From Pseudoclavibacter chungangensis (GTDB lineage: Bacteria > Actinomycetota > Actinomycetes > Actinomycetales > Microbacteriaceae), in contig NZ_JACCFV010000001.1 in NCBI RefSeq assembly GCF_013410545.1, forward strand, positions 620,001 to 684,000: a DNA stretch of 64,000 nucleotides. The letters run 5' to 3'. A model generated the notes under the pieces. It ran no database searches. It was not told the origin of the DNA and saw only the letters and a program-made list of their open reading frames with translations. The first letter of the stretch is position 1. Each line of letters opens with the position of its first letter. A program made the translations under genes and the position numbers. Shown here in pieces: positions 8,502 through 59,303 of this stretch.

Positions 8502-9080
8502 TCAGCCGAAGTGGGTGACACCAGCGGGGCGGACGACGCCGTCGACGGGAACGTCATGCGCTTCCGCGGGCACCTCGTCGAGCAGTTCGTCGTCGTGGAT
8601 GACGGCGAAGACGTGCGGCCGCGCTCGCAGCGATGCGAGCGCTCGGTCGTAGTACCCGCGGCCCCAGCCGAGTCGCACGCCGCGTCGATCGACCGCGGCG
8701 GCGGGCACGAGGACGAGCTCGGCCTGCGCGAGCGCGGCGGCCCCGAGCGTCCGACCGACGGGCTCGGGGACACCGAGCGCGCCCGTTCGCTCGGCCGCAC
8801 CGTCCGCGTCCACCCAGTCGAGCGATCCGTCGGGCGCGGCAACGGGCAGCAACACGCGGATGCCCTCGGCAGCGGCGAGCGCCAGGAGCGCGCGGGTGCC
8901 GGGTTCGTCGGCGGACGAGAGGTAGGCCGCGACGACACGGGCGTCGAGGGCGGTGACGAGTTTGAGCGCGGCCTCCGCGATACGGCGGTCCGCATCCGAC
9001 CGCTCGTGGGCGGTGCGGTCGCGTCGTGTGCGTCGGATGCGTGCGCGGATGGACCGCTTGCGCTCCGCGTGCTCGTCCAT
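8502..9080 (-). CDS. 5-formyltetrahydrofolate cyclo-ligase
   Basis: 192 residues, matching the family. It converts 5-formyl-THF to 5,10-methenyl-THF using ATP in folate salvage. The basic N-terminus (RKRSIRARIRRTRR) fits the ATP-phosphate site, and the diagnostic GWGRGYYDR motif lies at ~139-147, followed by the VIHDDELLDEVP region. Divergent from galU, with only 62 bp between start codons. The 198 bp between its stop and the FmdB-type gene show no gene. Confidence 0.94.
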   Translation of the reverse strand: MDEHAERKRSIRARIRRTRRDRTAHERSDADRRIAEAALKLVTALDARVVAAYLSSADEPGTRALLALAAAEGIRVLLPVAAPDGSLDWVDADGAAERTGALGVPEPVGRTLGAAALAQAELVLVPAAAVDRRGVRLGWGRGYYDRALASLRARPHVFAVIHDDELLDEVPAEAHDVPVDGVVRPAGVTHFG

Positions 9081-45262: not shown

Positions 45263-46306
45263 ATGTCGTACCTCGCAGCAGACGACCGATACGAGCACAT
45301 GCCCTATCGGCGCACCGGTCGGTCGGGCCTCGATCTGCCGGCGCTCTCGCTCGGCTACTGGCACAACTTCGGCGACGACCGCTCGTTCGAGACGCAGCGC
45401 GCCATCAGCCGCCGCGCATTCGATCTCGGGATCACCCACCACGATCTCGCGAACAACTACGGCCCGCCGTACGGCTCGGCCGAGCGCAACTTCGGCAAGC
45501 TGCTCCGCGAGGACTTCGCGCCGTACCGCGACGAGCTCGTCATCTCGACGAAGGCCGGGTGGGACATGTGGCCCGGACCCTACGGTCAGGGCGGCGGATC
45601 GCGGAAGTACGTGCTCGCGTCGCTCGATCAGTCGCTCGAACGGCTCGGTCTCGACTACGTCGACATCTTCTACTCGCACCGGCTCGACGCCTCGACTCCC
45701 CTCGAGGAGACGATGGGTGCGCTGCACACGGCGGTCCAGCAGGGCAAGGCGCTCTACGTGGGCATCTCGTCGTACGACGCGGCGCGGACGCGGGAGGCCG
45801 CCGAGATCCTGCGCGATCTGGGGACGCCGCTCCTCATCCACCAGCCCTCGTACTCGATGCTCAACCGGTGGATCGAGACGACGGGTCTGCTCGACGCGGT
45901 GGGGGAGCTGGGCGTCGGCGTCATCGGCTTCACCCCGCTCGCGCAGGGCCTGCTCACGAGTCGCTACCTGAACGGCGTCCCGGCGGACTCGCGCGCCGCG
46001 CACGACTCGTCGCTCGACCGCGACACGATCACGCCCGAGGTCGTCGAACGGCTTCGCGCGCTCGACGCGATCGCCACCGAACGCGGGCAGACGCTCGCGC
46101 AACTCGCGCTCGCGTGGGCACTGCGCGACGAGCGGGTCACCTCGCTCGTCATCGGCGCCTCGCGTGTCGAGCAGCTCGAGGAGAACGTCGCCACACTCGG
46201 GCGACTCGACTTCGACGACGCCGAGCTCGCCCGGATCGACGAGCTCATCACGGCGCCGACCGCGGGGGTCGACCTGTGGGAGGCGGCACGCGAGGGGCGC
46301 GTCTGA
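45263..46306 (+). CDS. Aldo/keto reductase, YghZ/GAP-reductase type
   Basis: 347 residues. Tetrad region: Asp and Tyr in THHDLANNYGPPYGSAE (TxxxLANNYGPPxGxAE is diagnostic for this subgroup), Lys in VISTKAGWDMWPGPYG and His in YVDIFYSHR. NADPH site near IGASRVEQLEENV. E. coli relatives reduce L-glyceraldehyde-3-phosphate and methylglyoxal. AAGGGA precedes the ATG. Monocistronic and divergent from the SRPBCC gene. Confidence 0.9.
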   Translation: MSYLAADDRYEHMPYRRTGRSGLDLPALSLGYWHNFGDDRSFETQRAISRRAFDLGITHHDLANNYGPPYGSAERNFGKLLREDFAPYRDELVISTKAGWDMWPGPYGQGGGSRKYVLASLDQSLERLGLDYVDIFYSHRLDASTPLEETMGALHTAVQQGKALYVGISSYDAARTREAAEILRDLGTPLLIHQPSYSMLNRWIETTGLLDAVGELGVGVIGFTPLAQGLLTSRYLNGVPADSRAAHDSSLDRDTITPEVVERLRALDAIATERGQTLAQLALAWALRDERVTSLVIGASRVEQLEENVATLGRLDFDDAELARIDELITAPTAGVDLWEAAREGRV

Positions 46307-46814: not shown

Positions 46815-46887
46815 GCGGGGAGTGTAGGGGCGCCGCCTGGCCGTCCCGGGCGTGGTCCTTGACAGTCCCGGTGCCGCTCCGGAAAAT

Positions 46888-46904
46888 TGAGAAAGCGCTT
46901 ACTC
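46888..46904. promoter_or_regulatory. LacI-type operator upstream of the GMC oxidoreductase
   Basis: TGAGAAAGCGCTTACTC, one mismatch from the symmetrical TGAGTAAGCGCTTACTCA form. 32 bp before the start codon. One of four near-identical sites in the window. Confidence 0.75.
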
Positions 46905-46936
46905 GCATCGTGGCGACAGCGTCGAGGAGGAAACCC

Positions 46937-48550
46937 GTGACCAACCAGCAAGCGTTCGACTACATCATCGCCGGGGGAGGGACGGCAGGAAGCGTGCTCG
47001 CCGGTCGGCTGAGCGAGGACCCGTCGGTCCGCGTCCTGCTCCTCGAGGCGGGACGCTCGGATCGCCACCCGTTCATCCACGTGCCCGCCGGGTTCGCGAA
47101 GCTCACGGCCGGCCCCTTCCAGTGGGGCTACTCGAGCGTTCCGCAGGAGCACGGCAACGGACGGCGGATCCCGCTCGCGCAGGGGCGCGTGCTCGGCGGC
47201 GGCGGATCCATCAACGCCCAGGTGTTCACGCGCGGGGTCGACGGTGACTACGACGGCTGGGCGAACGAGTACGGCGCGGAGGGCTGGTCGGCCGCCGATG
47301 TGCGCCCGTACTTCGTGCGCTCCGAGCGCAACAACCGACTCGCCGGACCGCGCCACGGCACGGAGGGGCCCCTCGGCGTCTCCGATCTCGCCTCGCCGCA
47401 CCCGCTGTCGCGGGACTTCGTGAAGGCCGGGCAGGAGTTCGGTCTGCCCTACAGCAACGACTCCAACGGTGACCGCCAGGAGGGCATCGGCTTCTACCAG
47501 ACCACGACGTACAACGGTCGGCGCTGCAGCGCGGCCGTCGCGTACCTCGGTGGGGGAGCCCGCAAGCGACCGAACCTCGTCGTCCGCACGCACGTCACCG
47601 TGTCGCGCATCATCGTCACCGACGGGCGTGCCACCGGCGTCGAGGTCATCGAGAACGGCACGCGGCACCGCTGCCTCGCGCGACGCGAGGTCCTCGTCGC
47701 GAGCGGCGCGTTCGGCTCCCCCAAGCTCCTGCAGCTCTCCGGCATCGGCGACCCCGCGGATCTCGCGGCGGCCGGGGTCGAGACGGTGCACGCACTTCCG
47801 GGTGTGGGCAAGAACCTGCAGGACCACTGCGATCTCGACATCATCGACGAGCTGAAGGACTACGCCAGCCTCGACCGGCTGAACAGGGTACGTCCCGCGA
47901 CCGCGATCGCGGGCCTCGAGTACCTCGCGTTCCGCTCGGGTCCCCTCGCCTCGACGGTGGTCGAGGCCGGCGGCTTCAGCTTCGGCGACCCGAACGAGGC
48001 CACCCCGGATCTGCAGTTCCACTTCCTCCCCGCCGCCGGGGTCGAGGCCGGCATCGGGTCCGTGCGTCCCGGCTACGGGGCGACCCTCAACTCCTGCTTC
48101 GTGCGACCGCGGAGCCGCGGGACCGTGCGCATCGCGTCCGCCGACCCGACCGTCGCGCCGCTCATCGACCCGAACTACCTCGCCGACGAGCGCGATCTCG
48201 AGATGGCCGTCGTCGGGGTCGAGCAGAGCCGCGAGATCATGGCGCAGCCCTCCATGGCGCGCAACATCAAGAAAGAGCACATCGGCGACGGCAGTCCCGT
48301 GCGCACGAAGGACGAGCTCGTCCGGTTCGTGCGCAACTTCGGCCGCACCTCCTACCACCCCGTCGGGACGTGCGCCATGGGCGTCTCGGACGACTCGGTC
48401 GTCTCGCCGCGTCTCCAGGTGCACGGCCTCGAGGGCCTGCGCGTCATCGACTCCTCGATCATGCCGCGCATCGTGAGCTCGAACACGCAGGCGCCGACCG
48501 TGATGATCGCCGAGAAGGCGGTCGACATGATCCGCGAGGACGCTCGCTGA
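46937..48550 (+). CDS. GMC-family flavin oxidoreductase (choline dehydrogenase-like)
   Basis: 537 residues from the GTG at 46937, preceded by AGGAGG six bases away. FAD motif YIIAGGGTAGSVLAGRLSED and GMC signatures GRVLGGGGSINAQVFTRG and ASGAFGSPKLLQLSGIG. The C-terminal catalytic region has His in TSYHPVGTCAMG and Asn in SSNTQAPTVM. Oxidises a primary alcohol or polyol to an aldehyde. The shared operator links it to the aldehyde dehydrogenase and the ABC importer nearby, so its substrate is probably the imported compound or a product of it rather than choline. Confidence 0.9.
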   Translation: MTNQQAFDYIIAGGGTAGSVLAGRLSEDPSVRVLLLEAGRSDRHPFIHVPAGFAKLTAGPFQWGYSSVPQEHGNGRRIPLAQGRVLGGGGSINAQVFTRGVDGDYDGWANEYGAEGWSAADVRPYFVRSERNNRLAGPRHGTEGPLGVSDLASPHPLSRDFVKAGQEFGLPYSNDSNGDRQEGIGFYQTTTYNGRRCSAAVAYLGGGARKRPNLVVRTHVTVSRIIVTDGRATGVEVIENGTRHRCLARREVLVASGAFGSPKLLQLSGIGDPADLAAAGVETVHALPGVGKNLQDHCDLDIIDELKDYASLDRLNRVRPATAIAGLEYLAFRSGPLASTVVEAGGFSFGDPNEATPDLQFHFLPAAGVEAGIGSVRPGYGATLNSCFVRPRSRGTVRIASADPTVAPLIDPNYLADERDLEMAVVGVEQSREIMAQPSMARNIKKEHIGDGSPVRTKDELVRFVRNFGRTSYHPVGTCAMGVSDDSVVSPRLQVHGLEGLRVIDSSIMPRIVSSNTQAPTVMIAEKAVDMIREDAR

Positions 48551-48583
48551 CACGAACGTCGCGAACGCCACGAACGCCACGAA

Positions 48584-48628
48584 CGGGCGGGCGGTGCCGG
48601 ACGAACCTCGTCCGGCACCGCCCGCCCG
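48584..48628. terminator. 21-bp perfect hairpin after the GMC gene
   Basis: CGGGCGGGCGGTGCCGGACG plus A, exact complement after an ACC loop. Preceded by a short tandem of ACGAACGCC-like units (48552-48580). Confidence 0.85.
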
Positions 48629-48710
48629 CCGCGGACGCCCGACGTCGTGATCGGCCGGCGGACGGCTCCGGCCGTCGCGCCGCACTCGACACGTGTCCGC
48701 GTGGGCGGGA

Positions 48711-48756
48711 CGACGAGGCGGGGCCCACCGTGCGCACGGTGGGCCCCGCCTCGTCG
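48711..48756. terminator. 46-bp perfect palindrome before the aldehyde dehydrogenase stop
   Basis: Both 23-base halves (starting CGACGAGGCGGGG, centre GTGC|GCAC) are exactly complementary, leaving only a minimal turn. Probably the terminator for the minus-strand gene, separate from the hairpin serving the plus-strand gene. Confidence 0.8.
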
Positions 48757-48796
48757 TCCTGCCTCGGTTCGTCCTCGCCTCGGTGTCGTCGATGCC

Positions 48797-50278
48797 TCAG
48801 GCGAGCGAGGTGCGGATCTGGATCGTCTTGACCTCGGTGAACTCCTCGAAACCGACCTGGCCCATCTCGCGCCCGTAGCCGCTGCGCTTGACGCCCCCGC
48901 CGGGCAGTTGCGGCGCACCGTCGATCGTCGTGTTCACCCACACCGTGCCGCTGCGCAGGCGACGGGAGACCTCGAGGGCGGTGTCGATGCTGCCGCTCCA
49001 CACCGAGTTCGCGAGGCCGTAGTCGACGGCGTTCGCGAGGCGCACCGCCTCGTCGGTGTCGGTGAAGCGCGTCACCGCGAGCACCGGCCCGAACACCTCC
49101 TCCGAGAACAGCCGCGTGCCGGGGGCGACGTGGTCGACGATCGTGGGCGCGACGTAGAACCCGTCGCCGAAGGCACCCTCCGTGAGGCGCTCACCGCCCG
49201 ACACGACGGTCGCGCCGTCCTCGCGGGCTCCGGCGACGAAGCCGAGCACGTCGTCGAGGTGCTGCTCGTGGATCATCGCGCCGACGGTCGCCTCCTCGTC
49301 GAGCGGCGCACCGACGTGCAACTCGGCGGCCTTCCGGCCGAGCACGGCCACGAACTCGTCCGCGATGTCCTCGTGCACGAGCAGGCGGGCGCCCGACACG
49401 CAGCACTCACCGGAGTTGAACGTGACGGCGAACAGCACGCCGTCGGCGGCCTTCTCGAGGTCCGCGTCGGGGAAGACGATGCTCGCCGCCTTGCCGCCGA
49501 GTTCGAGGGAGAGTCGCTTGAGCGTGCCCGAGGAGGCCGCGACGATCGACTCGCCGACGGCCGTGCTCCCGGTGAAGGACAGGAAGTCCACCTCGGGGGA
49601 GCGCGCGAGCAGCTCGCCGACAACGCGCCCCGGCCCGGTCACGACGTTGAAGACGCCGCTCGGGAGGCGGGCCTCCTCGAGGAGCGATGCGACCTCGAGG
49701 GTCGTGCCCGCCGTGAGCTCTGACGGCTTGCAGACCGCCGTGCAGCCGGCGGCGAGCGCGAACGGGAGCTTCTGCATGAGGAGCAGGAGCGGGAAGTTCC
49801 ACGGGGTCACCATCGCCACGACGCCGCACGGTTCGCGCGTCACGAGCCCCGTGAATCCGGGTCCGAGATTCGTGTGCACGTCGCCGTGTGTCGTGAGCGC
49901 GCACGCGGCCGCGTACTCGACGAGGCCGATGCTGCCCTCGACGTCGCCCCGGGCCGTCGAGATCGGCTTGCCCGTCTCCTCCGCCTCGATGCGCGCGAGC
50001 TTCTCGTGGTCGCGTCGCATGAGCGTCGCGAGCGTCGAGAGCACGCGGGACCGGGCCTGGCCCGAGATCGTCGGCCACTCGCCCTCGTCGAACGCGCGGC
50101 GAGCGGCGTCGATCCCGCGCTGGGTCACGTGCTCGTCGGCGCGCGCGAAGCGGGCGACGAGCTCGCCCGTCCCGGGGTTTCGCCGTTCGAACGGCTCCGA
50201 GTCGAGATGCTCGGTCGCGCCGTCGATGACGACACCGTACGACTTGACCCGGTTGATGTCCGTGTGGGTTGCTGCCAT
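48797..50278 (-). CDS. Aldehyde dehydrogenase (NAD-dependent)
   Basis: 493 residues. Motifs AMVTPWNFPLLL, KPSELT, FTGSTAVGESI, LELGGKAA with the general-base Glu, and NSGECCVSGARLL, where the first or second Cys of the CC pair is the nucleophile. Close to betaine-aldehyde and related dehydrogenases. AAGGAG before the ATG and a perfect AAGCGCTT operator just upstream. Probably oxidises the aldehyde made by the GMC enzyme or the alcohol dehydrogenase of the same regulon. Confidence 0.92.
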   Translation of the reverse strand: MAATHTDINRVKSYGVVIDGATEHLDSEPFERRNPGTGELVARFARADEHVTQRGIDAARRAFDEGEWPTISGQARSRVLSTLATLMRRDHEKLARIEAEETGKPISTARGDVEGSIGLVEYAAACALTTHGDVHTNLGPGFTGLVTREPCGVVAMVTPWNFPLLLLMQKLPFALAAGCTAVCKPSELTAGTTLEVASLLEEARLPSGVFNVVTGPGRVVGELLARSPEVDFLSFTGSTAVGESIVAASSGTLKRLSLELGGKAASIVFPDADLEKAADGVLFAVTFNSGECCVSGARLLVHEDIADEFVAVLGRKAAELHVGAPLDEEATVGAMIHEQHLDDVLGFVAGAREDGATVVSGGERLTEGAFGDGFYVAPTIVDHVAPGTRLFSEEVFGPVLAVTRFTDTDEAVRLANAVDYGLANSVWSGSIDTALEVSRRLRSGTVWVNTTIDGAPQLPGGGVKRSGYGREMGQVGFEEFTEVKTIQIRTSLA

Positions 50279-50287
50279 AGGAACTCC

Positions 50288-50307
50288 TTGGGTAAGCGCT
50301 TACTCAA
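50288..50307. promoter_or_regulatory. LacI-type operator upstream of the aldehyde dehydrogenase
   Basis: TTGGGTAAGCGCTTACTCAA with the perfect core GTAAGCGCTTAC, directly before the AAGGAG of the minus-strand gene, so binding would block its promoter or start. Confidence 0.78.
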
Positions 50308-50373
50308 TTTGGCGCGCGGCGGTTGCAGCGTATCACCGCGCTCGGTGCGACGGGAGTCTCGACGCCTCGGCTC

Positions 50374-50392
50374 TGAGGAAACCGTTTACTGA
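50374..50392. promoter_or_regulatory. Variant operator upstream of the LacI gene
   Basis: TGAGGAAACCGTTTACTGA. Same spacing as the other sites but with a changed centre (AACCGTTT), 38 bp before the regulator's ATG. Possible weaker self-regulation site. Confidence 0.55.
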
Positions 50393-50430
50393 TCGACTAG
50401 GCTCCCTGTGGAATCACGGAAGGATCCCCA

Positions 50431-51432
50431 ATGGCGCGAGAATCCACCCGGCGGGTCACGATCCAGCACGTCGCCGACGAGGCCGAGGTGTCGATCGCGA
50501 CCGTCTCGCGCGTCGTGAACGGCGACGCGAAGGTGAGCCCGGTGCTCGCCGAGCGGGTTCGCGAGGTCGCCGGCCGCCTCGGCTACCGGCCGTTCGCAGC
50601 GGCGAGGGATCTCGCCTCGGGGCACTATCGCAGCATAGGGGTCGTCGTCCCCGACCTCGGCAACCCGTACTTCTACGACGTCATCAAGGCGACGAGCGTC
50701 GGCGCCTCGGCCGAGGGGTATCGGCTCGTCATCTCCGATTCGGGGGACGACCCGGCCGTCGAACTCAGCATCGCCCGGGAACGACTGTCACAGGTCGACG
50801 GACTCCTGTTGCTCTCGTCGCGCATCGACGCCGACGGTCTCGCGACGCTCGCCCGAGCGACCACGCCCGTGACGCTCGTGAACCGCGTGGATCCCGAGTC
50901 CGGCCTGCCCGCCGTCGCGGTCGACAACTTCTCGGCCATGCTCGGCCTGTGTCACCACCTGTCCGTGCTCGGGCACCGACGGGTCGTGTACCTCGCGGGT
51001 TCCGCGAACGCGTGGCAGAACCGGGAGCGGTGGCGCGCGATCGAACAGGCCCGGGTCATGGGGCTCGAGGCGACGCGCATCGATGTCGCGGCGACGATCG
51101 AGAGCGGTGTCGCCCACGCGGAGGCCGCGCTCGAGACGAAGCCCACCGCGATCATCTGCTGCAACGACCTCATCGCCGTCGGGCTGCTCACGAGGCTCCG
51201 TGAGCTCGGGGTCCGCGTGCCCGAGGACGTGTCGGTGACGGGATTCGACGACATCGATTTCGCCCAGCACACGGTGCCGACGCTCACGACCGCCGTGAGT
51301 CCCCGGGCCGAGCTCGGCGACCGCTCGTGGCGTGTGTTGCGCGCGCTGCTCGCGGGCGAGCAGCCGCCCGCGGTGCCACTGCTCCTGGCGACCGTCGTGC
51401 ACCGTGGCTCGACCGGTCCGGCGCGCGACTGA
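50431..51432 (+). CDS. LacI-family transcriptional regulator
   Basis: 333 residues. N-terminal helix-turn-helix and hinge (VTIQHVADEAEVSIATVSRVVNG ... VREVAGRLGYRPFAAARDLASG), then a sugar-binding domain from ~62 (IGVVVPDLGNPYFYDVIK ... GLLLLSSRID ... IICCNDLIAVGLLTRLRELG ... SVTGFDDIDFAQHTVP). It sits between the aldehyde dehydrogenase and the ABC importer operon, both of which carry the same operator, and is the obvious repressor of both plus the GMC gene. Confidence 0.92.
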   Translation: MARESTRRVTIQHVADEAEVSIATVSRVVNGDAKVSPVLAERVREVAGRLGYRPFAAARDLASGHYRSIGVVVPDLGNPYFYDVIKATSVGASAEGYRLVISDSGDDPAVELSIARERLSQVDGLLLLSSRIDADGLATLARATTPVTLVNRVDPESGLPAVAVDNFSAMLGLCHHLSVLGHRRVVYLAGSANAWQNRERWRAIEQARVMGLEATRIDVAATIESGVAHAEAALETKPTAIICCNDLIAVGLLTRLRELGVRVPEDVSVTGFDDIDFAQHTVPTLTTAVSPRAELGDRSWRVLRALLAGEQPPAVPLLLATVVHRGSTGPARD

Positions 51433-51486
51433 CCGAGGCCCGCTCCGAAGTCGTGCTTGCGCGTTCCGTGCGGGGGTCGTATGGTC

Positions 51487-51503
51487 CATGAAAGCGCTTA
51501 CTA
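51487..51503. promoter_or_regulatory. LacI-type operator, distal site of the ABC operon
   Basis: CATGAAAGCGCTTACTA around 51487-51503, ~87 bp upstream of a second copy. Paired sites at roughly eight helical turns could allow looping. Confidence 0.68.
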
Positions 51504-51573
51504 GCCCGATTCGCCGCCCCCGGTCGAGAACGATCTCGTCGAGGGAAGCTCGGATCGGCGAAGCTTGACTTTG

Positions 51574-51590
51574 TGAGTAAGCGCTTACAC
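51574..51590. promoter_or_regulatory. LacI-type operator, proximal site of the ABC operon
   Basis: TGAGTAAGCGCTTACAC, best match to the symmetrical form, 70 bp before the binding-protein ATG. An upstream in-frame GTG at 51573 overlaps this site and is not taken as a start. Confidence 0.75.
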
Positions 51591-51659
51591 GATGCGAGTC
51601 CCACGGGACGACGTTTCAACGAGGAAACCAAGCATCACCTGCACCGTAGGGAAGATTCA

Positions 51660-52763
51660 ATGAGGAATTCGTTCAGGGTGGCCGCCGTCGCGGCCGGTCT
51701 CGTCACCGTCCTGCTCGGCGCGACCGCGTGCGCCGACGCCGTCTCGAGTGGCGGCGGGAGCGGCGAGGCCGGGCAGTGTGCCCCGGAGGACGTGCAGCTC
51801 GTGCAGTCGGGCCGCGGACTCGACAACGAGTACTACGTCGCCGTCGACGCGGCGGCACGCGCGTTCGCGGCGTCGCAGGGGCTCGAGGACAACTATCACT
51901 GGATCGCGAGCGACGGCGACTCGTCGAAGCAGCTCCGCCAGATCAAGTCGATCCTCGCGAAGGGGGGCGAGTGCGTCGTGCTCAACGTCGACGCGAACGA
52001 GTCCTCGCTCGTGCCGTCGATCGTCAAGGAGGCAGAGAACGCGGGCGCCTGGCTCGTCACGCAGTGGAACCGTCCCGACGGGGTCGCGCCGGAGACGAGC
52101 GACTCGCCGAACTGGGTCGCGCACATGTCGGTGGACGGCGTGCCCCAGGGATACGAGACCGCGAAGGCGCTCTTCGAACGCATGGGCGGGAGCGGGTCGA
52201 TCGTCGCGCTGCAGGGCATCCTCGACAACCCGCCGGCGAAGGAACGCTTCGAGGGCCTGCAGCAGGCACTCGAGGAGTACCCGGGCATCACGCTCCTCGA
52301 GGACCAGACCGCCGAGTGGTCGCGAACCTCCGCGCAGGACATCACCCAGACCTTCCTCACGAAGTACCCGGGCCAGATCGGCGGGGTGTGGGCCGCGAAC
52401 GACTCGATGGCGCTCGGTGCGCTCGAAGCGATCAAGAACGCCGGCCAGCAGGGGACGATCGCGGTCTCCGGCATCGACGGACTGAGCGAGGCGATCGACC
52501 TCGTGCAGGATCCCGCGAGCGGCTACGTCGCGACGTCGCAGTCCACGGCCGCCGCCCAGGCCGCCTTCGGCCTCGCGATCGGCCTCGCGGCCGCCACGGG
52601 CCAGATCGACCCGAGCTCCGAGCCCGCCGAGCACCGCTCCTTCTATCTGAAGCCCCTGCCCGCGGTCACCCCGGACACGGCATCCTCGCTGCCCGACCCG
52701 GCCGATATCAGCGGGTTCGACCTGACGGACATCTGGTCGGAGGTCGGGGGGCCGATCACATGA
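51660..52763 (+). CDS. Sugar ABC transporter substrate-binding lipoprotein
   Basis: 367 residues from the ATG at 51660, with AGGGAAG upstream. Lipoprotein signal with Cys at residue 24 (LLGATAC). The mature part is a type I sugar-binding fold of the RbsB/YtfQ kind (QIKSILAKGGECVVLNVD ... GSIVALQGILDNPPAKER ... IGGVWAANDSMALGALEAI ... SGIDGLSEAIDLV). It delivers a sugar or polyol to the two permeases. First gene of an operon continuing to at least the alcohol dehydrogenase. Confidence 0.92.
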   Translation: MRNSFRVAAVAAGLVTVLLGATACADAVSSGGGSGEAGQCAPEDVQLVQSGRGLDNEYYVAVDAAARAFAASQGLEDNYHWIASDGDSSKQLRQIKSILAKGGECVVLNVDANESSLVPSIVKEAENAGAWLVTQWNRPDGVAPETSDSPNWVAHMSVDGVPQGYETAKALFERMGGSGSIVALQGILDNPPAKERFEGLQQALEEYPGITLLEDQTAEWSRTSAQDITQTFLTKYPGQIGGVWAANDSMALGALEAIKNAGQQGTIAVSGIDGLSEAIDLVQDPASGYVATSQSTAAAQAAFGLAIGLAAATGQIDPSSEPAEHRSFYLKPLPAVTPDTASSLPDPADISGFDLTDIWSEVGGPIT

Positions 52764-53806
52764 CCCGCCTCGACAAGACCATCAGTGCGGCCGCGACGGC
52801 CGTCCCCGAGACGGACACGCGCTCCGGCCGGGCCGAGCGACTGCGCGCGCTCGTGAGCTCCGAGCGGGTCCCCGTGCCCGCGCTCCTCGTCCTGCTCGTC
52901 ATCGCGATCGTCATGCTCGTCGTGAATCCCGTCTTCCTGAGCCCGGGCAACCTCCGGGGCATCGCCGAGCAGAGCGCCGTGCCCATCGTCGTCGCGGTCG
53001 GGATGACGTTCGTGATCCTCATGGGTGGGATCGACCTGAGCCTGCCCGGCGTCATGGCGGCCGTCTCGCTCGTGACCGCGCTCACGCTCGCGAACGACCG
53101 CACGGGCCTCGACCTCGGGCTGTGGTCCATACCGCTCGGCTGCGCCGTCGGCGCGGCGCTCGGGCTCCTCGCGGGCCTGTCGGTCGCCGTGCTCAAGGTC
53201 CCGTCGTTCATCGTGACGATCGGGACGTGGCAGATCGGGCTCGGCATCGGCCTGCTCCTCTTCGGCGCGAAGCCCCCGCGCATCCTCGACGACGGCGTCC
53301 GCCAGCTCGTCAACGGGACCGTGCTGGGGGTCGCCGGCGCCGTGTGGATCGCGCTCGCGGTCGTCGTGCTCGGGTGGCTCCTCGAGACGCCCACCCGCTT
53401 CGGTCGGTACGCGTTCGTCATCGGCGGCAGTGAGGAGATCGCCCGGCTCTCGGGCGTCCCCGTGCGTCGCTACCGCGCCGCCTCGTTCGCGGTCGCGGGC
53501 GGGACGGCCGGCCTCGCCGCCGTCCTCGCGACACTCCGGACGGGCGTCGGCGACGTCGGAATGGGCGACAGCCTCCTGTTCACGACGATCGCGGGCATCG
53601 TGATCGGCGGCACCCTCCTGACGGGCGGCAAGGGCGGGGTCGTGCACTCCGTCGTCGGCGTCGTCGTGATCGTCGTCATCTCCAACGCCATGGTGCTCGG
53701 CGGCGTCAGTTCCTACATCCAGCAGGCCGTCCAGGGCGGCGTGGTCATCGTGGCCGCGGCCCTGTCGCTGTGGCGACTGCGCGCGAGATTGCGAGTCGTG
53801 AAATGA
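52760..53806 (+). CDS. Sugar ABC transporter permease (RbsC-like, first)
   Basis: 348 residues, about nine hydrophobic segments after a ~38-residue tail. RbsC-family markers: VAVGMTFVILMGGIDLSLPG, VPSFIVTIGTWQIG, TRFGRYAFVIGGSEEIARLSGVPV (in two runs) and GTLLTGGKGGV. Overlaps the binding-protein stop as ATGA and the ATPase start at its end. Works with the second permease, probably as a heterodimer. Confidence 0.92.
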   Translation: MTRLDKTISAAATAVPETDTRSGRAERLRALVSSERVPVPALLVLLVIAIVMLVVNPVFLSPGNLRGIAEQSAVPIVVAVGMTFVILMGGIDLSLPGVMAAVSLVTALTLANDRTGLDLGLWSIPLGCAVGAALGLLAGLSVAVLKVPSFIVTIGTWQIGLGIGLLLFGAKPPRILDDGVRQLVNGTVLGVAGAVWIALAVVVLGWLLETPTRFGRYAFVIGGSEEIARLSGVPVRRYRAASFAVAGGTAGLAAVLATLRTGVGDVGMGDSLLFTTIAGIVIGGTLLTGGKGGVVHSVVGVVVIVVISNAMVLGGVSSYIQQAVQGGVVIVAAALSLWRLRARLRVVK

Positions 53807-55320
53807 GCGGACAGCCCGTCCTCGAACTGCGGGGCGTCTCCAAGTCGTTCCCCGGGGTCGCAGCACTCACGGACGTGTCCATCGAGATCCGCCCGCACCA
53901 GGTGCTCGGACTCATCGGCGAGAACGGTGCCGGGAAGTCGACGCTCCTCAAGATGCTGACGGGGCTCGAACAGCCCGACACGGGCGAACTCCTCGTCCGC
54001 GGTGAGCGTGTCGCGCTCCGGGGCGTGACGGCCGCCAACGCACAGGGCATCGCCATGGTCTTCCAGGAGCAGTCGCTCCTCGAGAACATGCTCGTCGGCG
54101 AGAACGTGCTGCTCGGCACCGAGGGGCCCGCCGTCCGCTTCGGCGTCTACCGGTGGGGGCAGATCCGACGTCGCGCGCAGCACTACCTCGACGTCGTCGG
54201 CGGCGATCTGCGCGCGGGAGAACAGACGAGCAGGCTCTCGTTCGCGAAACGACAGATGGTCGAGGTCGCGAAGGCGCTCGCGACGGGCGAGCACGGCAAC
54301 GACCAGCCCGTCATCCTGCTCGACGAGCCGACCTCCGTGCTCGAACACGACGAGATCCGAACGCTCTTCCGCATCGTGCGAGAGCTCACCGAGCGCGCGA
54401 GCGTCGCGTTCGTGTCGCACCGGCTCGAGGAGGTGCTCGAGCTGTGTGACCGCGTCTACGTCATGCGCGACGGTCAGGTCGTGCACGAGTGCGTGCCGCG
54501 CGAGGTCGGGCACGACGAACTCTTCGCGCTCATGGTGGGGCGCGACGCGTCCGAGGGGTACTACCACGACGAGCTGCAGCGGCCGGCCGACCCGGACACG
54601 CGCGTCGAGGTGCGCGGGGCGAGCGCGGGCGCGTTCGAGGACGTGTCGTTCTCGATCGCTCGCGGTGAGGTCCTCACGATCATGGGGGTGCAGGAGAGCG
54701 GGCGCGAGGACATCGGCCGGGCACTGTTCGGGGCGATCCCGCTGCGCGCGGGCAGCATCACGATCGACGGGGAGGCGGTCGCGTTCCGCAGCCCGGCCGA
54801 CGCCGTGCGGGCCGGCATCGGCTACGTCCCGAGCGAACGCAAGGTCGACGGTGCCGTCCTCGGGATGAGCGTCGCCGAGAACCTCGTGCTCGCGCACCCC
54901 GAGGAGGTGAGCGTCGGGCCCGTGCTCTCGGCCCGGAAGGAGCGCGAGGCGGTCGCCGGATGGACCGAGCGGTTGCGCATCAAGACGCCCTCGCCGACAA
55001 CCCCGATCCGGAACCTCTCGGGCGGCAACCAGCAGAAGGTCGTGCTCGCCAAGTGGCTGCAGGATCCCGATCTGCGCCTGCTCGTGCTCGACACACCGAC
55101 ACGCGGCCTCGACGTCGGCGCGAAGGCCGACGTGTACGCGCTCGTGCGCGAACTCGCGGCGAAGGGGCTCGCCGTCCTGCTCATCGCCGACACGCTCGAG
55201 GAGGGTATCGCCATGGGCCATCGGGTTCTGACCATGAAGGACTGCCGCATCACGGGCGAGTCCGCCTCGACCCCCGACGACCGCCCGGACCGGGCGGCCC
55301 TGCTCGAGAGGAGGGTGTGA
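53803..55320 (+). CDS. Sugar ABC transporter ATPase, two-domain RbsA-like
   Basis: 505 residues, two ABC domains. The first has Walker A GENGAGKST, signature RLSFAKRQMVEVAKAL, Walker B VILLDEPTS and VSHRLEEV. The second has a degenerate P-loop (IMGVQESGRED), a good signature NLSGGNQQKVVLAKWL, and Walker B LLVLDTPTRGLD, where the catalytic Glu is Thr. In RbsA-type proteins one site often degenerates, but loss of both P-loop and Glu in one half is notable. Start ATG 53803 overlaps the permease stop. Confidence 0.92.
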   Translation: MSGQPVLELRGVSKSFPGVAALTDVSIEIRPHQVLGLIGENGAGKSTLLKMLTGLEQPDTGELLVRGERVALRGVTAANAQGIAMVFQEQSLLENMLVGENVLLGTEGPAVRFGVYRWGQIRRRAQHYLDVVGGDLRAGEQTSRLSFAKRQMVEVAKALATGEHGNDQPVILLDEPTSVLEHDEIRTLFRIVRELTERASVAFVSHRLEEVLELCDRVYVMRDGQVVHECVPREVGHDELFALMVGRDASEGYYHDELQRPADPDTRVEVRGASAGAFEDVSFSIARGEVLTIMGVQESGREDIGRALFGAIPLRAGSITIDGEAVAFRSPADAVRAGIGYVPSERKVDGAVLGMSVAENLVLAHPEEVSVGPVLSARKEREAVAGWTERLRIKTPSPTTPIRNLSGGNQQKVVLAKWLQDPDLRLLVLDTPTRGLDVGAKADVYALVRELAAKGLAVLLIADTLEEGIAMGHRVLTMKDCRITGESASTPDDRPDRAALLERRV

Positions 55321-55321
55321 C

Positions 55322-56329
55322 GTGACCACGACCACCGAAACCGCCGCGCTCGCGATCGCTGCCCGTCAGGAGAACCGCACGTTCGGGGGACGCGTCCGGC
55401 GCCTCCACGAATCCGGGTTCGCGCCGGTCGTGCTCCTCGTGCTCCTCGTCGCGATCGTCGCGATCTACGACCCGTCGTTCCTGCGGGTCCGCAGCCTCAT
55501 GTCGCTCCTCGAGCAATCGGCACCGCTCGTGCTGCTCGCGCTCGCCCAGGGCGTCGTCGTGCTCACGGGACGCATCACCCTCGCGAACGCGACCCTCGCG
55601 AGCCTCGCGGGCATCACGCTCGCGAAGCTCCTCGGCGCGTGGGGCGGGGCCGCGGTTCCCGCGGTCCTGCTCGGCGCCGTCGTCCTCGGTGCACTCATCG
55701 GCATCGTGCACATGGTCGCGCAGATCCCCTCCTTCATCGTGACGCTCGGGTTCATGGGCGTGTTCGCGGGGCTCTCGCTGTTCCTCTCGGGTGCGGACTC
55801 CGTGCTCGTGACCGACGGCTACGGCGCGGTCGAGTGGATCGGCTTCCGACTTTTCGGGATCCCGATCTCGTTCCTGCTCGTGCTGCTCGTCGCGGCCGTG
55901 CTCATGGCCGTCTACCGGTGGCTGCCGATCGGACGGGCGGTCATCGCGATCGGCCTCAACCAGCGCGCCGCCGCGTTCAGCGGGATCCGCGTCGACCCCG
56001 TCATGGTGTTCGTCTTCGCGCTCTCGGGGCTCCTCTCGGGGCTCGCGGCGGTCGTGCAGCTCGCACAGCTCCAGTCCGCGGGTGCGACGACCTCGGACTC
56101 GCTCCTGCTGCCGAGCATCGCCGCCGTCATCGTGGGCGGCTGCTCGATCGCGGGCGGTGTGGGCGGCATCGGCCGGATGGTGCTCGGGGCGCTCGTCATC
56201 GCGCTGCTCAGGGTCGGGCTCGATCTCGTGGGCGTCGATTCGGCGTACCAGCCCATCGCCTACGGCGTCATCGTGATCCTCGCGATCGCCGCGACCGTCG
56301 ACCGCCGCCGGGGCAGTGTCGTCGCCTGA
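55322..56329 (+). CDS. Sugar ABC transporter permease (RbsC-like, second)
   Basis: 335 residues from the GTG at 55322, one base after the ATPase stop. Hydrophobic throughout, with LALAQGVVVLTGRITLANATLASLAG (two runs) in place of the GGIDLS motif, IPSFIVTLGFMGVFAG, GRAVIAIGLNQRAAAFSGI and IVGGCSIAGGVGG. The GxxDLS motif is altered (GRITLANA), unlike the first permease. Confidence 0.9.
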   Translation: MTTTTETAALAIAARQENRTFGGRVRRLHESGFAPVVLLVLLVAIVAIYDPSFLRVRSLMSLLEQSAPLVLLALAQGVVVLTGRITLANATLASLAGITLAKLLGAWGGAAVPAVLLGAVVLGALIGIVHMVAQIPSFIVTLGFMGVFAGLSLFLSGADSVLVTDGYGAVEWIGFRLFGIPISFLLVLLVAAVLMAVYRWLPIGRAVIAIGLNQRAAAFSGIRVDPVMVFVFALSGLLSGLAAVVQLAQLQSAGATTSDSLLLPSIAAVIVGGCSIAGGVGGIGRMVLGALVIALLRVGLDLVGVDSAYQPIAYGVIVILAIAATVDRRRGSVVA

Positions 56330-56378
56330 ACGAACGCGGACCGCGACGGCGCGGTCCGCTCGACGAAAGGAGAACCGC

Positions 56379-57413
56379 ATGCACGCGCACGAGACGAGGA
56401 CGCTCGGACGCACCTCGATCGGGACGACGCTGCTCTCGTTCGGGGGCTCGCCGATCGGCAACTTCCTGCGACCGATGGATCATGAGGAGGCCCGGTCGCT
56501 CGTCGACGACGCCTGGGCACTCGGGACCCGCACGTTCGACACCGCGCCCCTGTACGGCCACGGCCTCAGCGAGCTCCGGCTCGGCGAGGCGCTCGCCGGA
56601 CGGCCGCGCGAGGAGTACGTCGTCTCGTCGAAGGCCGGCCGCGTGCTCATGCCCGCGGCGCCCGGCAGTTTCGAGTCGGGGCTCTGGGCGGAGCCCGCAC
56701 CGTTCCAAGCGACCTTCGACTACACGCGCGACGGCGTCCTGCGTTCGGTCGACCAGAGTCTCGAGCGGCTCGGGATCGACCGGATCGACATCGTCTACAT
56801 GCACGACGTCGATCGGTACACGCACGGCGAGACGCAGCCCTCAGCGTTCCGGACGGCCGTCGACGAGGGTTTCGGGGCGCTCGCCGAACTGCGCGACCAG
56901 GGCGTCGTCGGCGCGATCGGCTTCGGTGTCAACGAGGCCGATGTGTGCGCGCAGGTCGTCCGCGAGACCGACACCGATTGCGTCCTCCTCGCCGGGCGCT
57001 ACACGCTGCTCGAACAGGAGCCGCTCGACGACCTCCTGCCGCTGTGCGAGGAGCGTGGCGTCGGCGTGGTGCTCGGCGGGGTCTACAACAGCGGCATCCT
57101 CGCGACGGGTCCCACGGACCGATCGAAGTTCAACTACGCCCCCGCGCCGCCCGAGGTGCGTGCGCGGGTCGCGCGGATCGCCGAGGTGTGCGCGAGGCAC
57201 GACGTGCCGCTCCCGGCCGCCGCGCTCGCGTTCGCCGCCGCTCACCCCGCCGTCGCGAGCATCTGCATCGGCTCGCGCACGGTCGCGCAGCAGCGCGAGA
57301 CGGCGGCGCTCCTCGGGACGGTCGTGCCCGCGGAGCTGTGGGCGGAGCTGCGCGAGGCCGGTCTGCTGCGCGACGACGCCCCGACGCCCGAGTCGGCGGG
57401 AGCGTCCCGATGA
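56379..57413 (+). CDS. Aldo/keto reductase, L-fucose/D-threo-aldose dehydrogenase type
   Basis: 344 residues. Asp/Tyr in TFDTAPLYGHGLSELRLGEAL, Lys in VVSSKAGRVLMP and the IDIVYMHDVDRYTHGE region with catalytic His are characteristic of the pyridoxal-4-dehydrogenase/L-fucose dehydrogenase branch, which oxidises free aldoses at C1 to lactones. AAAGGAGA precedes the ATG. In the ABC operon, so its substrate is probably the imported sugar. Confidence 0.88.
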   Translation: MHAHETRTLGRTSIGTTLLSFGGSPIGNFLRPMDHEEARSLVDDAWALGTRTFDTAPLYGHGLSELRLGEALAGRPREEYVVSSKAGRVLMPAAPGSFESGLWAEPAPFQATFDYTRDGVLRSVDQSLERLGIDRIDIVYMHDVDRYTHGETQPSAFRTAVDEGFGALAELRDQGVVGAIGFGVNEADVCAQVVRETDTDCVLLAGRYTLLEQEPLDDLLPLCEERGVGVVLGGVYNSGILATGPTDRSKFNYAPAPPEVRARVARIAEVCARHDVPLPAAALAFAAAHPAVASICIGSRTVAQQRETAALLGTVVPAELWAELREAGLLRDDAPTPESAGASR

Positions 57414-58531
57414 GCGCGGCGGTCGGCGACGACGGGCGGATGCGGGCGGCGCGGTTCCACGGTCCGGGCGACATCCGCATCGAACGGATCGCGCGGCCGC
57501 CACTCCGTGGCGGTGCCGTCGAGATCCGTGTCGAGTGGTGCGGCATCTGCGGAACGGATCTGCACGAGTTCACGGACGGCCCGATCTTCTGCCCGACGCC
57601 CGACGATCCGCACCCGCTCACGGGGGAGACGTCGCCCGTCGTCCTCGGGCACGAGTTCACGGGCATCGTGACTGCGATCGGTGACGGGGTGCACGGGGTC
57701 GCGAACGGTGAACGCGTTGCGGTCGAACCGCGGCTCGTGTGCGGCACGTGCGACGCGTGCCGTCGCGGCCTGCGCAATTGCTGCGCATCGGCAGCGACGA
57801 TCGGCCTCGCGGGTGGCGGCGGCGGTCTCGCCGAGTACGTCGTCGTCGACGCGGACCTCGTCTTCCCGTTCGGTGAGCTCGGTGCCGAGGCCGGTGCGCT
57901 CGTCGAGCCGCTCGCGGTCGCGTACCACGCGATCCGGCAGTCGGGCTTCGAGGCGGGGGACACGGTGGTCGTCTTCGGCGCAGGGCCGATCGGACTGCTC
58001 GTGCTCGCCGTGCTCCGGGCACTCGGTGCCGGGCCCGTCGTGGTGGTCGAACCGACCGCGACGAGGCGCGCGCACGCCGAGGCGGGCGGCGCGGCCGCCG
58101 TGCTCGATCCGCGGGTCGACGACGTCGCCGGGGGCATCGCGGCGCTGACGGGCGGTGACGGCGTCGCGGTCGCGTTCGACTGCGCGGGCGTGGACGCGAC
58201 GCTGCAGGGCTGCCTCGACGCCGTCCGGGCGGGCGGCACGGTCGTGAACGTCGCGATCCGGGGGCGCCCCGCGACCGTCGATCTCCTTCCCCTCGTGCTC
58301 AAGGAGGTGCGTCTCGTCGGCACGATCTGCTACGCGGGCGACCATGCGTCGGTCATCGAACTCCTCCGCGCGGGTCGCCTCGACGTCGGGCATCTCGTGA
58401 CCGCCAGGATCGGGCTCGACGACCTCGTGGACGGTGGGCTGCGCGCGCTCCTCGACGACCACGGTGCCCAGGTGAAGATCCTCGTCTCGCCGGCGGCGGG
58501 CGCGACCGGCGCGAGCGAGGAAACGACTTGA
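57410..58531 (+). CDS. Zinc-dependent alcohol dehydrogenase
   Basis: 373 residues. Catalytic zinc: Cys in WCGICGTDLHEF, His-Glu in VLGHEFTG, Glu in ALVEPLAV. Structural zinc: CGTCDACRRGLRNCC. Rossmann motif VFGAGPIGLL. The length and the PIFCPTPDDPHPLTG insert resemble butanediol/sorbitol dehydrogenases. Overlaps the aldo/keto reductase as ATGA and closes the ABC operon. Likely oxidises a polyol intermediate. Confidence 0.9.
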   Translation: MSAAVGDDGRMRAARFHGPGDIRIERIARPPLRGGAVEIRVEWCGICGTDLHEFTDGPIFCPTPDDPHPLTGETSPVVLGHEFTGIVTAIGDGVHGVANGERVAVEPRLVCGTCDACRRGLRNCCASAATIGLAGGGGGLAEYVVVDADLVFPFGELGAEAGALVEPLAVAYHAIRQSGFEAGDTVVVFGAGPIGLLVLAVLRALGAGPVVVVEPTATRRAHAEAGGAAAVLDPRVDDVAGGIAALTGGDGVAVAFDCAGVDATLQGCLDAVRAGGTVVNVAIRGRPATVDLLPLVLKEVRLVGTICYAGDHASVIELLRAGRLDVGHLVTARIGLDDLVDGGLRALLDDHGAQVKILVSPAAGATGASEETT

Positions 58532-58655: not shown

Positions 58656-59303
58656 ATGGGACGCGAAGATCCGAGGCTCGCCCGGTCGCGCGACGCGCTC
58701 GTGGCGGCGATGACGGAGGCGCTCGACTCCGACGAGGGGATCGACCGACTGACGATCGCCGAGCTCACGAAGCGCGCGGGCGTCAGTCGGCCGACCTTCT
58801 ACCAGCACTTCGCCGACCCGGCCGCGCTCGTCCGCGCGGCAGGGGTCGCCCGGCTCGAAGCCGTCTTCGTGTGCGTGCCCCAGGCCGCCCTCGGGGAGAG
58901 CTGGCGACGATTCGTGCGCGGAACGATCCGCACGATCCTCGCCGAGCTGCACGAACGGCGTCGCTTCTACCTCCGCGCGCTCGATGCCGACAACGGGGGC
59001 GATCTCAGCCGCGACGTCATCGAGTTCCTCGCCGTCCGGCTCCGTGACGTGTCGCCGCTCGGACCCGTGCTGCGACGCGGCGTCGGCGACGACCTCGCCG
59101 TCGCGCGCTCCGAGTTCCTCGCGGCGGGCGTCTTCTGGCACGTCGCGCGCTGGTTGCAGCGCGACGGTGCGAGCGCCGAGGCGATCGACGACATCGTCGA
59201 AGAGGTGAGCGAACTCCTCCTCACCGCCTCGGGCGCGACGCCCGAGGAGATCGCGACCGCGCGTGCCGAGGACGCGCTCGACGCCACGGGGGTGCGCGCA
59301 TGA
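58656..59303 (+). CDS. TetR-family regulator
   Basis: 215 residues. Helix-turn-helix ~32-55 (LTIAELTKRAGVSRPTFYQHFADP). The C-terminal ligand domain is not assignable. It overlaps the YhgE/Pip gene as ATGA, so it probably controls its own operon. Upstream, CAAACAG (58560-58566) and CTGTTTG (58595-58601) are inverted repeats near AT-rich promoter-like sequence. GAAGGGA precedes the ATG. Confidence 0.9.
   Translation: MGREDPRLARSRDALVAAMTEALDSDEGIDRLTIAELTKRAGVSRPTFYQHFADPAALVRAAGVARLEAVFVCVPQAALGESWRRFVRGTIRTILAELHERRRFYLRALDADNGGDLSRDVIEFLAVRLRDVSPLGPVLRRGVGDDLAVARSEFLAAGVFWHVARWLQRDGASAEAIDDIVEEVSELLLTASGATPEEIATARAEDALDATGVRA

Follow-up and report, generated by a model that had tools for sequence, protein, structure and literature searches.

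A putative LacI regulon of Pseudoclavibacter chungangensis that joins a ribose-type importer to four predicted oxidoreductases and recurs in other actinobacteria

LacI-controlled operons for CUT2 importers of the ribose, threitol or xylitol type combine a LacI regulator and CG-centred palindromes with a Peripla_BP_4 solute-binding protein (SBP), a tandem-ABC ATPase and two BPD_transp_2 permeases. All of these features are shared by a locus of Pseudoclavibacter chungangensis that lies in bases 620001-684000 of a single 3,985,007-base contig (this whole stretch of 64,000 nucleotides is hereafter the window, and positions are counted from its first base), but in place of an FGGY or PfkB kinase it has a GMC-family oxidoreductase, an aldehyde dehydrogenase (ALDH), an aldo-keto reductase (AKR) and a zinc-dependent alcohol dehydrogenase (Zn-ADH). 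Two further known systems resemble it in part. The L-sorbose/L-sorbosone dehydrogenase pair of Gluconobacter joins an FAD-dependent alcohol dehydrogenase, which we take to be a GMC enzyme, to an NAD(P)-dependent ALDH, and the corresponding pair of the window is likewise predicted to convert CH2OH to COOH; unlike the Gluconobacter pair, it is accompanied by ABC import, AKR, Zn-ADH and LacI, and its ALDH is equally similar to an uncharacterised ALDH. Non-phosphorylating pathways of the L-fucose/L-rhamnose type share with it an aldose-dehydrogenase-type AKR and oxidation before phosphorylation, whereas the nine genes of the window include no lactonase, dehydratase or fumarylacetoacetate hydrolase (FAH)-family hydrolase, and add GMC and ALDH. 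A pathway of this composition was not found in the open-licence PubMed Central (PMC) literature, in agreement with an earlier interpretation of the DNA letters (the sequence-only reading), which knew of none. Judged by its sequence features, the locus is a genuine and conserved regulon of a known architectural kind. We consider it probable that this is a LacI-repressed catabolic regulon in which a small polyhydroxylated compound (a sugar, polyol or relative) would be taken up by the CUT2 importer and oxidised without phosphorylation.

Regulon genes and operator-like sites of the window

The nine genes, with the Pfam families that they match, are:

46937-48550, plus strand: GMC-family FAD oxidoreductase, predicted primary-alcohol oxidase/dehydrogenase (PF00732, PF05199)
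48797-50278, minus strand: ALDH (PF00171)
50431-51432, plus strand: LacI-family regulator (PF00356, 48.1 bits, cut-off 27; PF13377, 116.5 bits, cut-off 26.5)
51660-52763, plus strand: CUT2 (ribose-type) SBP (PF13407)
52760-53806, plus strand: CUT2 permease 1 (PF02653)
53770-55320, plus strand: CUT2 ATPase with tandem ABC domains (PF00005, two stretches)
55322-56329, plus strand: CUT2 permease 2 (PF02653)
56379-57413, plus strand: AKR of the L-galactose dehydrogenase type, predicted aldose/hemiacetal dehydrogenase (PF00248)
57410-58531 (start possibly 57440), plus strand: Zn-ADH, predicted polyol/secondary-alcohol dehydrogenase (PF08240, PF00107)

The regulator carries an N-terminal LacI helix-turn-helix and a sugar-binding-like domain, both scoring above their Pfam cut-offs, and the Pfam matches of the SBP (Peripla_BP_4), the tandem ABC ATPase and the permeases (BPD_transp_2) place the importer in the CUT2 class. 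The ALDH and lacI genes are divergently oriented, and the six genes from SBP to Zn-ADH (SBP, permease, ATPase, permease, AKR, Zn-ADH) form an importer operon on the plus strand (51660-58531) in which neighbours overlap or are separated by at most 49 bp. Four palindromes with the core GTAAGCGCTTAC precede these units, one before GMC, one before ALDH and two before the importer operon, and a weaker variant precedes lacI:

46859-46887, plus strand: promoter-like site of GMC, TTGACA-17-GAAAAT, one of two sigma-70-like promoters in 12 kb (0.1 expected)
46889-46904, no strand: operator O1, GAGAAAGCGCTTACTC, before GMC, one base past the -10-like hexamer (which ends at 46887), core at 46891
50290-50305, no strand: operator O2, between the divergent ALDH and lacI genes, 11 bp ahead of where ALDH starts, core at 50292
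50378-50389, no strand: operator O3, weaker variant GAAACCGTTTAC, 41 bp ahead of lacI, three mismatches from the core
51488-51503, no strand: operator O4, upstream of the importer operon, core at 51490
51575-51590, no strand: operator O5, upstream of SBP, 87 bp from O4, core at 51577

With at most one mismatch GTAAGCGCTTAC occurs at only four places in the 3.985-Mb genome, all within 4,701 bp. The count itself is ordinary, because a reversed control pattern also matches four places in the genome; the clustering of all four has a probability of about 6.6e-9 under uniform placement, as an after-the-fact estimate. Exact AAGCGCTT is present five times in the window against 0.33 expected, the fifth copy (62265) lying inside a long open reading frame (ORF). 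The site pattern put forward by the sequence-only reading gave, with up to three mismatches, 11 strand matches in the window against 3.7 expected, a number reached by one of 100 shuffles. Its observation of sites and genes centred on LacI was borne out, down to gene identities and coordinates, including the variant before the regulator; three of its four sites have the described form exactly on one strand, and the fourth (51488) departs from it at two bases outside the core.

This layout is consistent with import and repression as in ordinary CUT2/LacI systems. Without inducer, LacI would occupy the palindrome by the promoter of GMC, that by the start of ALDH and the two ahead of the importer operon, with the 87-bp spacing of O4 and O5 suiting a DNA loop, and the site ahead of lacI makes autoregulation, in the form of mild self-repression, possible. 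The imported compound or an early product would then bind LacI and open all three units. If so, the regulon is cleanly bounded, with one repressor and four strong sites, and the question of its substrate may be reduced to that of the ligands of the binding protein.

Conservation of the genes and sites among actinobacteria

When named genomes were searched with the SBP, 18 loci emerged, of which 13 (L041-L053) bear the cluster; the carriers belong to Microbacterium, Pseudarthrobacter, Streptomyces (seven), Wenjunlia, Planosporangium, Gulosibacter and Mycobacterium. The others, L054 and L056-L058 (SBP 42-47% identical) and the fragment L055, are outside all carrier counts. Gene co-occurrence was counted by tblastn in the fetched carrier neighbourhoods, which are unequal in size: L044-L047 are represented only by a locus of about 20 kb, whose end cuts the GMC gene in three of them. 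This comparison showed that: 1) the GMC, ALDH, LacI and four importer genes are each present in all 13 carriers, LacI being 45-70% identical. 2) AKR is found at 52% identity or more in 12/13 and Zn-ADH at 50% or more in 10/13. 3) A search with the core AANCGNTT, allowing up to three mismatches, recovers 38 operator-like sites from the 13 loci, where Markov shuffles predict 2.25 and the richest of 20 such shuffles has 6. All but three of these (35/38) lie in intervals upstream of called genes of any family, which make up 32% of the sequence; the exceptions are one at L051 19900 and two in L041 within an over-long ALDH ORF call, and the latter two fall in the ALDH/lacI gap, since the LacI match there begins at 8681. 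One of the 38 abuts the end of the contig in L050, and the sites of L044-L047 are all three-mismatch forms. 4) The LacI recognition helices are, by eye, near-identical among carriers, and the hinge reads AARDLA in the window, L041 and L042 and AAQ(G/R)LA in nine of the remaining 11 carriers. The 38 conserved operator-like sites together with the shared gene set thus argue for a conserved regulon, and support the proposal of the sequence-only reading that a single regulon spans the three units and lacI. If the function proposed here is correct, it would represent a kinase-free route for a compound usable by several actinobacterial genera.

The cluster seems to be rare among near kin, as the SBP has matches at 1e-50 in only 6 of 249 genomes of the family (all but its own at only 42-44%) and at 1e-100 in one of 394 genomes of the class, namely its own; no plasmid match was found at 1e-60. 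A corresponding AKR search in the family was uninformative because this is a broad family, with relatives in 97 of 249 genomes at 1e-60 that are 38-54% identical apart from its own. SBP relatives at L088-L090 stand in other gene contexts. The sister importers L054 and L056-L058 adjoin a KduI-like isomerase (so named by NCBIfam for L054 only, and assigned by sequence clustering in the rest), with KduD/KdgK/KdgA-like genes recognised by eye in L054 and a similar set, again by eye, in L089; their sequences suggest that L054 and L056-L058 may be a hexuronate-importing sister group. Beside the cluster of Microbacterium hydrocarbonoxydans (L041 14561-18558) is an apparent L-fucose/rhamnose-type oxidative set of an AKR (43%), an enolase-superfamily dehydratase, an FAH-family hydrolase and a short-chain dehydrogenase/reductase (SDR).

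Predicted oxidation steps and the question of a kinase

Pfam identifies no sugar or polyol kinase among the nine regulon genes of the window. In the 13 carrier neighbourhoods one PfkB query has no tblastn match, and two FGGY queries match in two, in both cases 6.8 kb or more away from the cluster. The kinase that does recur is glycerate kinase, present in 4/13 neighbourhoods and also elsewhere in the genome of the window. The lack of a detected sugar kinase in the regulon, taken with the recurrent glycerate kinase, favours oxidation before phosphorylation, which on these gene contents is the better reading, with glycerate a likely exit. Both the missing kinase and this order of steps had been anticipated by the sequence-only reading. 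Its suggestion of C1 oxidation is not supported, as no C1-specific family is present among the window genes and none of the families found points that way; the regulon, the gene set and the lack of a detected sugar kinase are what stands of that interpretation.

The solved structures nearest to the GMC protein are choline dehydrogenase 9lq0, alcohol oxidase 8rpg and the chloramphenicol-inactivating oxidoreductase 8b7s, the last of which oxidises a primary alcohol. Given its proximity to bacterial choline/alcohol oxidases, we propose that GMC pairs with ALDH to give an acid: GMC, with FAD, would convert a primary alcohol to the aldehyde and ALDH, with NAD(P)+, the aldehyde to the carboxylate. 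AKR, nearest to the L-galactose dehydrogenases 8scc and 9w6y, and Zn-ADH, nearest to (R,R)-butanediol dehydrogenase 6ie0, would oxidise a hemiacetal or a secondary hydroxyl. The SBP is nearest to 2rjo, for which the open-licence PMC literature yielded no paper. In Streptomyces iranensis a second GMC-ALDH pair (71% and 58%; L074 6232-9332) is situated about 3 kb from the first.

The proposal of kinase-free oxidation names no substrate, and oxidation of a ketose of the L-sorbose/L-sorbosone type would be a special case of it, with GMC as sorbose dehydrogenase and ALDH as sorbosone dehydrogenase forming a 2-keto-aldonate that Zn-ADH and AKR then reduce or oxidise. No solved structure is appreciably closer to the ALDH than the L-sorbosone dehydrogenase of G. 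oxydans (7w5l, 443 bits), but the uncharacterised ALDH 3u4j scores equally (444 bits), and the ALDH of the window stays under the cut-off in each of the 25 ALDH families among the matches listed (best 25 of 44). Zn-ADH has a weak similarity to L-idonate 5-dehydrogenase (154 bits, cut-off 469), while the importer has no tie to ketoses. The use of FAD-dependent L-sorbose dehydrogenase together with L-sorbosone dehydrogenase in the production of 2-keto-L-gulonic acid is described in two papers (PMC7092628, PMC10602560). On these grounds we regard a sorbose-type substrate as improbable.

The same proteins were compared with enzymes of choline/betaine and vitamin B6 degradation, in which GMC would be a choline dehydrogenase or pyridoxine 4-oxidase, ALDH a betaine aldehyde dehydrogenase and AKR a pyridoxal 4-dehydrogenase. 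Of the models for choline dehydrogenase, GMC matches PRK02106 with 539 of the 605 bits required and betA with 473 of 732, ALDH reaches 425 of 669 bits for the betaine aldehyde dehydrogenase model, pyridoxine 4-oxidase is itself a GMC relative (4ha6, 211 bits), and Microbacterium luteolum has an AKR-type pyridoxal dehydrogenase. Yet all of these scores are below the cut-offs, the ATPase misses the model of a putative B6 ABC importer (NF047930, 309.5 of 670 bits), none of the nine window genes encodes a lactonase, and other alcohol oxidases are closer to GMC than 4ha6 is. Such a function is very improbable indeed, and the choline/betaine and B6 assignments were rejected, as was that of Zn-ADH to the scyllo-inosose dehydrogenase IolM (NF041097), all scores being under the NCBIfam cut-offs.

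Downstream modules in relatives and the DUF993 family

In the relatives, enzymes that could, by their families, process the acid further are found in the cluster. DUF993 together with a TIM-barrel protein is present in 9/13 carriers and Gfo/Idh (at least 59% identical) in 5/13; a CoA-transferase together with an acyl-CoA dehydrogenase (ACAD) occurs in 10/13, a close SDR (at least 62%) in 9/13 and electron transfer flavoprotein (ETF) in 5/13. Gulosibacter (L076) has the colinear row SBP-TM-ATP-TM-AKR-ADH-glycerate kinase-FAD protein-Gfo/Idh-TIM-DUF993, followed by LacI (reverse) and ALDH-GMC, and in M. hydrocarbonoxydans an FAD-Gfo/Idh-TIM-DUF993 run leads directly into GMC. The Streptomyces row is SDR-CoA-transferase-ACAD-importer-(ETF)-AKR-ADH, with sites ahead of SDR, and both S. 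humicola (L077, by Pfam) and S. iranensis (L074, by eye) have an enoyl-CoA hydratase close to the cluster. In Mycobacterium aquaticum (L053) sites precede ACAD, DUF993, ALDH, LacI and CoA-transferase. Breakdown of the acid in these organisms might hence proceed through Gfo/Idh, the TIM-barrel isomerase and an aldolase-like DUF993 to glycerate and glycerate kinase, and/or through CoA-transferase, ACAD, enoyl-CoA hydratase and SDR.

DUF993 was recovered in all 11 carrier genomes searched (L044 and L046 were outside this search) and in 0/14 control genomes; for L045 and L047 the fetched DUF993 region is on another contig than the cluster. The searches made found no function for this family (PF06187), whose profile matches S. 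meliloti SMc04132 with 570 bits; its solved structure, 4dnh, was released in 2012, unnamed, as a hypothetical protein. SMc04132 occurs in an S. meliloti expression table within PMC12542648, and the open-licence PMC literature yielded no paper on DUF993. An AlphaFold model (mean pLDDT 79.4) best matches 4dnh and then dihydrodipicolinate synthase (DHDPS) enzymes, with TMq 0.63-0.70 among the matches listed. Eleven members share an invariant K206, which falls in strand six of the model when strands are counted along the sequence. The fifth strand bears an HWLG motif instead of the tyrosine that DapA enzymes, with their Schiff-base lysine on strand 6, carry on strand 5. We read DUF993 from this model as a class I aldolase/lyase-like protein with the DHDPS/KDG (2-keto-3-deoxygluconate)-aldolase fold, and its link to the regulon might offer a first clue to what the family does. 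More tentatively, and with some doubt, we envisage an actinobacterial pathway not yet described whose substrate, a polyol- or carba-sugar-like molecule, is imported, oxidised to an acid at a primary alcohol by GMC and ALDH and cleaved by DUF993 as a new class I aldolase, the first phosphorylated intermediate being phosphoglycerate from glycerate kinase, with a CoA/ACAD branch added in Streptomyces and relatives.

The presence of Gfo/Idh and TIM-barrel proteins also recalls the IolG-IolM-IolO route of Thermotoga, in which case Gfo/Idh, Zn-ADH and the TIM-barrel protein would act on an inositol-like ring. The best NCBIfam match of Zn-ADH is indeed IolM (226.7 bits, cut-off 450), that of Gfo/Idh is inositol 2-dehydrogenase (156, cut-off 355), and one of two TIM proteins tested best matches IolO (52.6, cut-off 300), but all three are under cut-off, and to our knowledge the Thermotoga pathway has neither a GMC/ALDH step nor a DHDPS-like protein of the DUF993 kind. 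We hold a cyclitol route of this type to be unlikely.

In the genome of the window the sole DUF993 gene recovered lies some 260 kb from the regulon, as the last in a row LacI2/MHS-permease/Gfo-Idh/TIM/DUF993, in which the MHS-type permease falls short of the cut-off for metabolite/H+ symporter (365.9 of 443 bits), Gfo/Idh is 72% identical to that of L041 and TIM 65% to that of L042. No sites of the regulon LacI were found in the 19-kb stretch around this module. An insertion element with 23-bp inverted ends that are 96% complementary interrupts this DUF993 gene after model position 334:

L062 10916-12399 (genome C1 939915-941398): ISL3-family element in the DUF993 gene

Given this split, the route in this strain may stop at the acid or use other enzymes. 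This raises the prospect that the regulon is here a decaying or partial-oxidation remnant, its downstream steps lost and the acid excreted or the pathway dead, which would be compatible, as to origin, with the regulon proposed above. A genome search for the CoA-transferase gave no match, though without a positive control, so that the empty result alone shows nothing, and no close relative of the FAD protein was found in the genome (best 34% over part of its length). Conversely, all nine window genes are open, the operators are well kept and a promoter-like site is present; the downstream enzymes could be generic, and the distant module, having its own LacI and MHS-type permease, may serve another substrate. 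We therefore think a remnant rather unlikely.

Several points weigh against a conserved LacI regulon for oxidation without phosphorylation: 1) hinge and site match imperfectly, L052 and L053 each having a one-mismatch site with other hinges. 2) Sites and genes of the carriers are not independent, because five carriers, L043-L047, are Streptomyces closely related to one another; the sites of these five are all three mismatches from those of the window. 3) The carrier sites were sought with a consensus derived from the window. 4) The fetched neighbourhood of M. hydrocarbonoxydans, the nearest relative, shows neither an AKR (only 43%) nor an ADH of the regulon type, and both are therefore not essential everywhere. 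5) The kinase check consisted of three queries only (two FGGY, one PfkB). 6) The CoA branch, which calls for an acid saturated at C2-C3, and the aldolase branch, which calls for a polyhydroxy acid, have no obvious acid in common.

In other Streptomyces (L079, L080, L084) Gfo/Idh-DUF993-TIM is paired with apparent CUT1-type importers, and hence the module built on DUF993 may not be confined to a single uptake system. Around the regulon in the window, a second AKR (45263-46306), an MFS protein (43034) and an SRPBCC protein (46344) were considered as members and set aside, as they have no operator-like site in front; at 1e-20, moreover, none of the 13 carrier neighbourhoods gives a match to AKR 45263 or SRPBCC 46344, the two of these three proteins that the comparison covered. 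The AKR counted in the regulon by the sequence-only reading is accordingly the one in the operon (56379), and not its upstream neighbour. Directly 3' of the regulon, a repeat-rich membrane protein of 837 aa (59300-61813), which by eye we take to be YhgE/Pip-like, overlaps a TetR regulator (58656-59303).

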